Origin: Alphaproteobacteria bacterium
GTDB taxonomy: Bacteria > Pseudomonadota > Alphaproteobacteria > SMXS01
NCBI GenBank assembly: GCA_030836535.1
Contig: JAURPT010000151.1
Span: 1-38,143, forward strand
Length of the DNA: 38,143 bases
Direction: 5' to 3'
This document shows, piece by piece, positions 9,115 to 26,298 of the stretch (its first letter is position 1; every line of letters starts with the position of its first letter). The position numbers and the translations under genes were made by a program. The notes beneath the pieces were generated by a model. It searched no databases, was not told where the DNA came from, and saw nothing but the letters and a program-made list of their open reading frames with translations.

Positions 9115-9927
9115 TCAATAGATACTCATGCGGCTGAGTTTGCGGACCAGGTAAAAACCTGCGTCGTCCAGCCTGGTGTCGCCGGGCAGGGCCGCTACCG
9201 CACCGCCAGACGCAATAGACCGTAGCATACAGGGTTCGGTTTCATCGTCCCGTGGTCCTGAATCGGCGCAGTCCCCCAGCCAGTGACTGGCGATATAGGG
9301 GCTATCGATCGTCCCTTCCATGTTCAGAATATCATTGGCTTGCTGCCATTCCGCCACGGTTGGAAGGCGGTAAATCTTGCTGGATTCAAGGCTCAGCCAG
9401 TCTGCATAGGCCTGGGCGTCGTCCCAGCTCAGGCAATGCACGCCTTCTGCGGGTGACTTCATGGGGCAGGGGGGCAGCGCGCGGCCCGTATCCGCTGTGA
9501 AAGTATGAAATTCCGCAAAGGAAATCGGGCGCGTTGTAATGCCCAGGCGGTCAATTTCGCCGTGGCCTTCGCTTTCCATAATGGTCACGGGTGGGCAGGT
9601 GCGGCAGTCGATCAGTTTGGCGCCTCGCCATCCTTCCTTGGCTGGCTGTGGCGCGGTTGCGGCAGCGGGGTCTGGTGTTTCCGTCACAATATCCGGCGCG
9701 TCCGCCACATGTTCCGCGGCTGCCTGGTCCTGCACGGTGGCATCGTCAGTGGTGGCGTAGAACAATGCAAAACCAATCAGCATCGCAAAGGCAGAAATAA
9801 CCGCATAGGTTACCTGCCGCCGCTTGGCGCGCTGGTCGGCGCGCAGGCGGTAATAATACGGATAGGTGCGCTGTTCGGTCAGCGAACGGATGAAGTCCCG
9901 GATCATGCCCATGGGGGAATTGTTCAT
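9115..9927 (-). CDS. membrane-anchored FGE-sulfatase (SUMF1) domain protein
   Basis: About 270 residues from the ATG at 9925-9927; a TTG seven codons upstream is also possible. One transmembrane helix lies near residues 42-60 (TYAVISAFAMLIGFALFYA), followed by an Ala/Pro/Asp-rich linker and a periplasmic domain with CLSWDDAQAYADWLS and YRLPTVAEWQQA, the core of the formylglycine-generating-enzyme fold. The domain is shorter than catalytic FGE and diverges near the end (GDCADSG), so it may be a binding or structural version rather than a sulfatase activator. It converges with the biotin-carrier gene, 14 bases apart. Confidence 0.7.
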   Translation of the reverse strand: MNNSPMGMIRDFIRSLTEQRTYPYYYRLRADQRAKRRQVTYAVISAFAMLIGFALFYATTDDATVQDQAAAEHVADAPDIVTETPDPAAATAPQPAKEGWRGAKLIDCRTCPPVTIMESEGHGEIDRLGITTRPISFAEFHTFTADTGRALPPCPMKSPAEGVHCLSWDDAQAYADWLSLESSKIYRLPTVAEWQQANDILNMEGTIDSPYIASHWLGDCADSGPRDDETEPCMLRSIASGGAVAALPGDTRLDDAGFYLVRKLSRMSIY

Positions 9928-9990
9928 CAATTGCGCCGCCTGTGACAACCCAAAATATTATAGGCCTGCATATTGTTGGCTGAAACAAAA

Positions 9991-10072: not shown

Positions 10073-10612
10073 TTAGTCCATGGGCACCTGGTGTTCGCTG
10101 CCACGAACAATATAGGCCACGCCGGACTGGTCGTAACACATGGTCGCTGCCATGCGGACAATATCGCCACCATGGTCTTCATCGCGATAGGCAATATGGC
10201 ATGGCTTGGTCGCAGAATACTCGCGGGCATCGCCGTAATTGCGGTCCTGCCGGTTGTCGTAGCGATTGTCATGCCGGTTGTCATAGCGACGATTATTGTT
10301 GCTGGTAATGGCATAGGTCAGGGCTGCTGTACCCAGTACGGCGAAGGGGATCCAGGCCCCGCTGCTGCGATGACGGTGGCGATAGTGGCGATGACCATGC
10401 CGATAACCGTGACGATAGCCGCCACCATAATAACCGTAACCACCGCCATAATAGCCGTGGCCGTGGCGGCCGCCTGCATAAGATTCCGTCGGCATCATGG
10501 TGGCCAACATGCCAAACACGGCCAAGCCGGCCAGCAGCTTCTTGGCAAAGCCGGGCGTCTTTTTGGTGGCCTGGCGGGCGGTATTATCGGTCGTCGTCAA
10601 GTCTGTGCTCAT
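10073..10612 (-). CDS. exported Gly/Tyr/His-rich protein, shares C-terminal module with 10821-11675
   Basis: A 179-residue protein from the ATG at 10610-10612, placed after GGAGAGAGACC. The frame extends upstream without coding character. A hydrophobic segment (LLAGLAVFGMLATMMP) ending in SYAGG suggests an export signal with a longer polar start. The mature part begins with a Gly-Tyr-Gly and His/Arg-rich run, then a hydrophobic stretch (WIPFAVLGTAALTYAI) resembling a glycine-zipper type anchor, an Asn/Arg/Tyr/Asp repeat, and a folded end with ATMCYDQSGVAYIVRGS. That end matches the neighbouring larger protein, arguing for a common cell-envelope role. Function unknown. Confidence 0.65.
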   Translation of the reverse strand: MSTDLTTTDNTARQATKKTPGFAKKLLAGLAVFGMLATMMPTESYAGGRHGHGYYGGGYGYYGGGYRHGYRHGHRHYRHRHRSSGAWIPFAVLGTAALTYAITSNNNRRYDNRHDNRYDNRQDRNYGDAREYSATKPCHIAYRDEDHGGDIVRMAATMCYDQSGVAYIVRGSEHQVPMD

Positions 10613-10670
10613 GGTCTCTCTCCGCGTATTTCGCGTCTGGGTGATCATTGCCTGAAACAATAACCATCTC

Positions 10671-10702
10671 AACCTGAATGAAATATGAACGATATTCAGA
10701 TT
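10671..10702 (-). promoter_or_regulatory. inverted-repeat element upstream of 10073-10612, copy 1
   Basis: On the minus strand the element reads AATCTGAAT, 14 bases, ATTCAGGTT. Its arms CTGAAT/ATTCAG are perfectly complementary. It ends 58 bases before the gene. The same outer words recur at 11779-11812 upstream of the sister gene, which points to one transcription factor acting on both. Confidence 0.5.
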
Positions 10703-10741
10703 AGCAGGAATAAGTGCTTAGTTGAACAAGTAGGGGCCTGA

Positions 10742-10772
10742 CAAAAAAAGCCGGCCTGTGTGGTACAGGCCG
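10742..10772 (-). terminator. rho-independent terminator
   Basis: A perfect 8-bp stem, CGGCCTGT with ACAGGCCG, is followed on the minus strand by GC and seven T residues. It ends the transcript of the Arg/Ala-rich exported protein gene, 49 bases after its stop. Confidence 0.85.
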
Positions 10773-10820
10773 AATCTTGGTTGTTTATGGTTTCCCGCTT
10801 TTGGCGGAGCTCAGGCTCTC

Positions 10821-11675
10821 TTAATAGCGGTAGAGAACCTGGCGGGTACCGCGAACAACATAGCTGTTACCCCAGTCGTCGTTGCACATGGTGGCACCAA
10901 CCAGGCGGGCATTGTGGCCATAGCCGCGAACCCGAACAACCGGGTGACATCCATTGGCGCGATCCCAATCAGAGATGTAGAAGCTGCTCCACAGGCCACC
11001 GAAATAGGGCTGCCACGTCTGGAAGTGGTTGTAGTTATTGTAGAAGTACCAGTGGTTCGAAAAGTGCCGATTGGCATGGTGCCAGTGGGACTTGCGATAG
11101 TGCTTCCGATAGTGGCGGTTATAGTGGCGGTGGTTATGCTTGGCGTAATACCGGCCATAGTTGTGCCGCTGCGCCTTGCGATAGCCCTTGTGGTAACCCT
11201 GGTGATAGGCCCGATCATAGTGGCGGTGGGCGCGCTTGTAACCCTTGCGATAGGCGCGTTCATCAGCACGGCGCTGTGCGCGGTTATACGCCCGGTTATA
11301 GGCACGGTTTTCCGCATGCTGGTGACGGCGGGCTTCGCGGCGAGCATCCTTGCGGGCATCACGGCGCGCTTCCTGACGACGGTCTGCACGACGCTCTGCG
11401 CGGCGATCGGCTTTGCGTTCAGCGCGGCGGTCTTCACGACGGGCTTCGCGGCGTGCGTCCCTGCGGGCATCTCTGCGCGCGTCCTGCCTGCGTTCAGCCC
11501 TGCGGTCGGCGCGACGTTCTGCCCGCTGATCTGCACGGCGTTCGGCGCGGTTCTCTGCCCGGCGCTCAGCGCGGTCGCCATCACCCGGGGCAGCGCCGGC
11601 ATCGATTGAAAGGCCGAGGCTGGCAACACCCAGGGTCATGACAGTGGCGAGGGTGGTTATCGGTCGTCTGATCAT
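10821..11675 (-). CDS. exported Arg/Ala/Asp repeat protein with Tyr/His-rich region
   Basis: A 284-residue protein with a signal peptide (MIRRPITTLATVMTLGVASLGLSIDAGAA). Residues about 33-120 are a highly charged repeat of the type RAERRADRRAERR and RRDARRDARREARRE, likely one long basic helix. Next come RAYNRAYNRAQRR and a Tyr/His/Lys/Arg-rich stretch (KGYKRAHRHYDRAYHQGYHKGYRK). The last 60 residues form a compact part with GCHPVVRVRG and GATMCNDDWGNSYVVRGTRQ, matching the end of the protein at 10073-10612. Repetitive DNA leaves long open frames on the other strand too, but the signal peptide, ribosome region, terminator and shared module support the minus strand. Binding to acidic polymers or metals is possible; not demonstrated. 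Confidence 0.7.
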   Translation of the reverse strand: MIRRPITTLATVMTLGVASLGLSIDAGAAPGDGDRAERRAENRAERRADQRAERRADRRAERRQDARRDARRDARREARREDRRAERKADRRAERRADRRQEARRDARKDARREARRHQHAENRAYNRAYNRAQRRADERAYRKGYKRAHRHYDRAYHQGYHKGYRKAQRHNYGRYYAKHNHRHYNRHYRKHYRKSHWHHANRHFSNHWYFYNNYNHFQTWQPYFGGLWSSFYISDWDRANGCHPVVRVRGYGHNARLVGATMCNDDWGNSYVVRGTRQVLYRY

Positions 11676-11778
11676 TTTCTTCTCCTGTTTGTTGGCCTTC
11701 GGTTTTTCGCTACGCGGTGTGCTAACGAATCACCAGGCCGTTTCAACAGGGCCTTTATGGCCTAGCAAACCTGCACGA

Positions 11779-11812
11779 AACCTGAACGGCATATTCATAA
11801 TGGGTTCAGATT
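11779..11812 (-). promoter_or_regulatory. inverted-repeat element upstream of 10821-11675, copy 2
   Basis: On the minus strand it reads AATCTGAAC, 16 bases, GTTCAGGTT. The arms CTGAAC/GTTCAG are perfectly complementary, and the outer words AATCTGAA and TTCAGGTT are identical to the copy at 10671-10702. It lies about 103 bases before the gene start. Confidence 0.5.
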
Positions 11813-25827: not shown

Positions 25828-26151
25828 CTAGTGCTGGCGCTTGCCGGTGGCCATGCCGCTGGCGGCGTCGCGGGGGCGGGTGGCCGCACGGCTGTCACCC
25901 ATGGCATTGGTGGCGCGGGTGGGTGCCGTGTTCGGGTCGCCCGGGTTCACCACCGTACCATTCACCGAGCAGGGCGCGTTGGCGATGGTGCTGGTTTCAT
26001 TGCCTTCATCATCCAGCAAATACAGGCAAGGCGCGTCGGCGGGCTTCAGTAGCTGCATTTTCTTGCCTTCGGCCGTGGCACCTGTTGAGGCAATGCCCAA
26101 AGCCAGGCCAATGGCCAGGGCCGCGGTCATCTTTGATGTGTTGTGGCGCAT
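25828..26151 (-). CDS. small exported hypothetical protein
   Basis: A 107-residue protein with a signal peptide (MRHNTSKMTAALAIGLALGIASTGATA). The ATG at 26149-26151 follows AGGGGACA. The mature part has two cysteines (DAPCLYLLDDEG and NAPCSVNGTVVNPGD) likely to form a disulphide, then a polar low-complexity tail rich in Thr, Arg and Ala. No family recognised. Confidence 0.65.
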   Translation of the reverse strand: MRHNTSKMTAALAIGLALGIASTGATAEGKKMQLLKPADAPCLYLLDDEGNETSTIANAPCSVNGTVVNPGDPNTAPTRATNAMGDSRAATRPRDAASGMATGKRQH

Positions 26152-26298
26152 GATTGTCCCCTTTTCTGCGTCTTCCCGTGTTGAATATGCCTATCTTAGC
26201 CTGCTTTCCTGAACCCCCGCTGAATTTCTGCTAGAGGCGCGCGGCAGAATTGGTCATAAAGAGGGCCGTATAAATTCACAGCATGCAGGGAGTTTACC

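Follow-up and report, generated by a model that had tools for sequence, protein, structure and literature searches.

The window (the whole stretch of DNA that was analyzed, 38,143 nucleotides) carries on its reverse strand two adjacent genes, here called A and B, whose products are repeat-rich and, by eye, have the look of exported proteins, just as the initial annotation had put it, with export itself a prediction. Their coordinates, and those of the regulatory features discussed below, are collected in Table 1. B lies directly upstream of A in all ten genomes of the family, and an intrinsic terminator predicted between the two suggests that A probably needs a promoter of its own. A neighboring gene on the same strand (9115-9948) encodes a formylglycine-generating-enzyme-like (FGE-sulfatase) domain and, judged by eye, an N-terminal membrane segment.

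Table 1. Genes and candidate regulatory features of the window; export, terminator and -10 hexamers are predictions.
Feature	Position	Strand	Note
Gene A, 179-aa exported Gly/His/Arg-rich protein	10073..10612	-	10/10 family genomes (protein search)
Predicted -10 hexamer of A, TATTGT	10657..10662	-	11 bp after A box
Putative PhoP-type box of A, GTTCAT-N5-ATTCAG	10674..10690	-	upstream of A in 10/10 family genomes
Inverted repeat at A	10671..10702	-	right part overlaps A box; left arm CTGAAT not conserved in the sister species
Predicted intrinsic terminator between B and A	10751..10773	-	prediction
Gene B, 284-aa exported Arg/Ala/His-repeat protein	10821..11675	-	paralog of A in C-terminal domain
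Predicted -10 hexamer of B, CATAAA	11754..11759	-	11 bp after B box
Putative PhoP-type box of B, GTTCAG-N5-GTGCAG	11771..11787	-	upstream of B in 10/10 family genomes
Inverted repeat at B	11779..11812	-	outer half of reverse box and distal half of forward box
Second, reverse-oriented putative box upstream of B, ATTCAT-N5-GTTCAG	11793..11809	+	counterpart in G000, G001, G002
107-aa predicted exported protein downstream of third box	25828..26151	-	two cysteines
Third putative box, ATTCAG-N5-GTTCAG	26209..26225	-	found by matrix score in this genome

The C-terminal domain of A, which carries two cysteines (..MAATMCYD..G.AYIVRG..), is homologous to that of B (hhalign probability 95.7, E 9e-9), and on this ground the two genes are tandem paralogs. 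Neither protein gave a Pfam match over the cut-off or an NCBIfam match, and the common ‘cysteine-pair’ domain belongs to no known family. A model of this domain, calculated from 15 sequences (pLDDT 78), consists of three short helices and four strands; it returned no Foldseek match at E <=0.001, and VIA-align, with a best Z score of 4.3, offered no interpretable relative, a weak list of structural matches that does not show the modeled fold to be a new one. A supposed homology to the C-terminal region of the glycine-zipper lipoprotein described below, in which the cysteine spacing appears alike by eye, was not supported (hhalign probability 1.2). Seven relatives of A and B were found among the named genomes that were scanned, all of them metagenome-assembled and inconsistently labeled; the family records L080, L081, L082 and L084 bear the names Rhizobium sp. 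Q54, Sphingomonadales or Kuenenia despite a syntenic B-A pair.

Upstream of both genes the initial annotation had described an inverted repeat with identical outer 8-mers, AATCTGAA and TTCAGGTT, and had read it as the site of a single regulator controlling an envelope function. The pair is present on the reverse strand exactly as described, with arms CTGAAT/ATTCAG spaced 14 bases apart at A and CTGAAC/GTTCAG spaced 16 bases apart at B, and shuffling the window 100 times with dinucleotides preserved gave no match to the pattern. When the genome (2.68 Mb in 183 contigs) was scanned for it, as the annotation had suggested, it was found in a promoter position at A and B only; the sole additional match lies within the reading frame of an MFS transporter and has an 8-base gap, and was taken as a chance occurrence.

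Footprinting across the family (10 of 10 genomes) defines a different conserved element, which partly covers the inverted repeat at both genes: a direct repeat, RTTCAK-N5-RTNCAK, whose period is 11 bp and which is located 11 bp before the -10 hexamer. In the upstream regions of the family its conserved form is RTTCAK-N5-RTTCAK at A and GTTCAK-N5-GTRCAG at B, and in this genome the boxes themselves read GTTCATATTTCATTCAG and GTTCAGGTTTCGTGCAG, respectively. The 3' arm of the inverted repeat coincides with the promoter-proximal half-site at A and with the promoter-distal half-site at B; its left arm is absent in the sister species at A (upstream regions compared) and at B forms part of a second box of reverse orientation. 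The idea of one shared regulator site in front of envelope genes is thus supported, with the correction that its unit is a tandem direct repeat and not an inverted one.

A weight matrix built exclusively from 18 distinct boxes belonging to other genes (the operon and the lipoprotein gene discussed below), in which the spacer was ignored, recovers a box in front of both A and B in each of the ten family genomes, or 20 of 20 promoters, with each of these best scores being reached by no more than 1 of 300 dinucleotide shuffles. A score of at least 12.8 was found in 1 of 474 control tiles (200 nt each) and at 4 of 76,254 positions in the window, namely the box of A, both boxes of B, and the third box of Table 1. 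Across 55 boxes, a -10-like hexamer occurs at a single spacer length of 11 bp (mean score +1.8 bits; 35 of the 55 score best there), while at all other spacer lengths between 4 and 19 bp the mean is -5.5 or lower; this fixed spacing is weakest in the 10 promoters of A. One fixed distance to the -10 hexamer is typical of PhoP-activated promoters, and the 55 boxes examined here, with their peak at 11 bp, display just such a distance. The consensus of the Pseudomonas aeruginosa PhoP box, as given in the available part of PMC3156716, is GTTCAGNNNNNRTTCAG; the boxes of A and B each agree with it at 11 of 12 defined positions, and those of the lipoprotein gene agree exactly. The element itself is real and in all likelihood regulatory, and by these comparisons of sequence it constitutes a PhoP-type direct-repeat box.

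At gene B, two such boxes facing in opposite directions abut (11754-11809 with the -10 hexamer), providing four half-sites, two per orientation, with consecutive ones separated by 5 bp. A counterpart of the reverse box is present in all three genomes of the two nearest genera (G000, G001 and G002), and none was found in the other seven family genomes (g3). It serves no divergent gene, because the modC-like gene upstream runs in the same direction as B. The third box precedes, by 57 nt, the gene for a 107-residue protein that has no Pfam match, and the hexamer TAAGAT lies ten bp downstream of it (26193-26198, reverse strand). This box, together with the wider regulon elsewhere in the genome, had escaped the initial annotation.

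Over the whole genome, the pattern RTTCAKNNNNNRTNCAK has 20 matches, compared with 1 for a reversed control whose dinucleotide make-up differs. Seven of the 20 were judged to be correctly oriented in promoter positions, in front of A, B, the 107-residue protein, a glycine-zipper lipoprotein, an EF-hand exported protein, an AMIN/amidase protein, and rpoH; one of the remainder is the reverse box at B, and about 12 fall within genes or are unclear in position. The box of the lipoprotein gene recurs in 9 of 10 family genomes. That of rpoH, 60-71 nt before the start, is found in one rpoH clade, in all eight family genomes carrying that clade. Two rpoH clades exist in the family, and the boxed one forms a separate branch (L021 (G000:C83); L095-L102). 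For the other family clade (4 of its 9 genes scanned), three genes scored 5.3 or less and the fourth, in which a half-site is poor, reached 14.9, and of the rpoH genes of the class outside the family, 1 of 22 exceeded 12.8 (23 records, one of them lacking a readable frame). The edges of the regulon are soft, because the boxes of the EF-hand and amidase genes are not conserved across the family, and neither gene was retained as a core member: the former, scanned at the best locus in each of nine genomes (one partial; the tenth had no match), is boxed solely in this genome (1 of 9), and the latter reaches a box score of 13.8 in 2 of 9 genomes and 12.5 in a third.

A complete relative (G003) has 10 pattern sites and none for the control; these precede gene A, the operon, the lipoprotein gene, rpoH, a sulfatase-fold membrane enzyme, and genes for an Arg-rich exported protein (DUF6515), an exported DUF1236 protein and a small exported protein, with two sites unclear. 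A distant complete genome has 7 sites, again with none for the control. The box in front of the sulfatase-fold enzyme (L068, 1501-3017) is perfect; by NCBIfam this protein is LtaS-like, at a score far below the cut-off, and it is possibly an envelope phospho-group transferase.

A further bearer of the box is an operon elsewhere in the genome (L042), in which a small PepSY-like exported protein is followed by an OmpR-family response regulator (L042:6663-7334) and a kinase, and which carries a box of its own, GTTCATTTCAGGTTTAG; the box site of the lipoprotein gene adjoins the kinase gene. The order of small exported gene, regulator (RR) and histidine kinase (HK) is kept in 10 of 10 family genomes, as is the box at the operon promoter. 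At a threshold of E 1e-30, the kinase was matched in 22 of 60 genomes, comprising all 10 of the family and 12 others. In 8 of those 12 more distant genomes (G012, G013, G016, G018, G037, G042, G044 and G059) the operon is likewise boxed, and in 4 (G010, G017, G021 and G046) the box is absent or weak; another PepSY-RR-HK locus of the complete relative (L066), a more distant one, has none. Pfam PepSY was matched over the cut-off by 3 of 6 of the small proteins tested and just below it by 2, and the protein of this genome has no PepSY match over the threshold. For the kinase, the best curated family and the best solved relatives are PhoQ, and for the regulator the best curated families are PmrA and, in second place, PhoP. 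Because neither protein attains the curated (NCBIfam) cut-offs (PhoQ, 152 of 497 bits; PhoP, 217 of 336; PmrA, 224 of 330), the pair is best termed ‘PhoPQ-like’ rather than certified PhoPQ. PhoP-PhoQ proper responds to low Mg2+ or to cationic peptides. Five OmpR-family regulators were found in the genome, of which four were read: that of L042 and three that are PhoB-, ChvI- and CenR-like, labels which represent our own reading, with the CenR-like one assigned by the aspartate positions set out in the available part of PMC9275681. Among these regulators, that of L042 alone has a box scoring above 10 in its own locus; the fifth has no box in its locus.

A mechanism can be proposed from what is read directly from the genomes, namely the box with its conservation, spacing and distribution, and the operon. 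With an 11-bp offset that puts both RTTCAK half-sites on the same face of the helix, the box would be bound by a head-to-tail dimer of an OmpR-family response regulator, most likely the PhoP/PmrA-like protein of the PepSY-RR-HK operon. Lying 11 bp before the -10 hexamer, the box would take the place of a -35 element, and on that account binding of the phosphorylated regulator is proposed to activate transcription. The same box precedes the operon and the adjoining lipoprotein gene, so that the system would control itself. The catalytic half of the kinase is like that of PhoQ, and the PepSY protein in the periplasm probably holds the kinase in check as long as the envelope is undisturbed; the response to a disturbance would then raise the sensor system, A, B, other exported proteins, the lipoprotein, and the RpoH paralog of the family. 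For A and B, export, composition and co-regulation together suggest an envelope-protective function. In sum, we consider it probable that the element is a PhoP-type operator read by a PhoP/PhoQ-like, PepSY-guarded envelope sensor that drives A, B, itself, the lipoprotein and rpoH. The more elaborate version, in which such a sensor directly drives the RpoH paralog through a PhoP box and to which a new A/B family and a two-box B promoter are joined, appears to us evenly poised.

The main rival to this proposal makes CenR, an envelope regulator essential in alphaproteobacteria, the reader of the boxes in place of a PhoP-like protein. According to the available part of PMC9275681, CenR of Rhodobacter sphaeroides binds TGA-N8-TGA direct repeats and activates rpoHI, as a direct target, together with envelope genes; on the other strand (TCA-N8-TCA) that motif fits the box, and the present genome encodes a CenR-like regulator (L040) with aspartates at 11-13, 51 and 56 as described there. 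Yet the cenR-like gene has no box in front of it, in contrast to the PepSY-RR-HK operon, which has one in all ten family genomes; moreover, the strong GT that precedes TCA in the box fits the Pseudomonas PhoP consensus, and the CenR-like and PhoP-like regulators are distantly alike (102 versus 217 bits with the PhoP model). On balance, reading of the boxes by CenR seems unlikely.

Considerably less probable still is an operator for a symmetric dimer, in which the outer arms CTGAA..TTCAG of the inverted repeat are themselves the site. The exact outer 8-mers do occur at both genes and in no other promoter position of the genome, but the exact pair is found at A or B in 0 of 9 relatives while the direct repeat is present in 20 of 20 promoters, the distance between the arms differs by 2 bp between the two genes, and the shared arms occupy different registers relative to the -10 hexamers of A and B. 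The inverted repeat was therefore rejected as an operator on the ground of its lack of conservation; it is not the functional unit, and the interpretation first placed on it is partly supported. That the upstream similarity is a mere relic of tandem duplication with no current regulatory meaning is scarcely credible, for although A and B are indeed tandem paralogs in their C-terminal domain, the same box stands before unrelated genes of the family (the kinase operon, the lipoprotein gene and rpoH) and its 11-bp spacing to the -10 hexamer is kept amid surrounding sequence that is unlike, so that the earlier denial of a simple duplicated upstream region holds at least in that there is more here than a recent copy.

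The regulon governed by the putative PhoP-type box is new and of a known kind, its fresh parts being the family-specific branch of rpoH and the A/B family of exported proteins; no direct precedent for such a box in alphaproteobacteria was found in the literature searched, in which few subscription journals were covered. An eye-catching repeat becomes in this way a testable regulon, in which one box links a PepSY-RR-HK operon, a glycine-zipper lipoprotein, an rpoH paralog and uncharacterized exported proteins across an uncultured alphaproteobacterial family; in distant alphaproteobacteria, too, the kinase operon bears this box. Two orphan families of exported proteins acquire a likely context, that of envelope stress, and, if the proposal is correct, the PhoP box at the RpoH paralog would join envelope sensing to a heat-shock sigma factor.

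Among known systems, FeuP has ndvA as a known target. The FeuP-FeuQ-FeuN system of Sinorhizobium meliloti, as described in the available part of PMC12486126, joins two-component partners of an alphaproteobacterium to a small protein of the periplasm that inhibits the kinase, and it is probably another relative. CenK-CenR resembles the present case in its OmpR-family regulator, in a direct repeat of compatible motif and period, and in its rpoHI and envelope targets (PMC9275681, same portion); the difference is that the CenR-like regulator of this genome is a separate protein and that its gene is unboxed. The likeness to PhoP-PhoQ of P. aeruginosa extends to the box itself, to the pairing of an OmpR-family regulator with a PhoQ-like kinase, and to the position of a direct repeat near the -10 hexamer, whereas the operon described here opens with a PepSY-like gene and its candidate regulon includes rpoH; in addition, the retS and rsmZ sites of P. 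aeruginosa are repressing, as far as the available part of PMC3156716 goes, while the boxes here look activating. Finally, the DbfQRS system of Vibrio cholerae has a PepSY protein in the periplasm that binds the kinase, and its regulator becomes active upon damage to the outer membrane; DbfQ-DbfR-DbfS is described as a widespread module (PMC12714742, available part). Both systems have a small PepSY gene immediately before those of the regulator and the kinase, and both show apparent autoregulation; the targets of DbfQRS differ (biofilm and metabolism), and the same part of that report gives no DNA box for it. With the element described here, DbfQRS-like modules would gain a concrete candidate DNA site in alphaproteobacteria.
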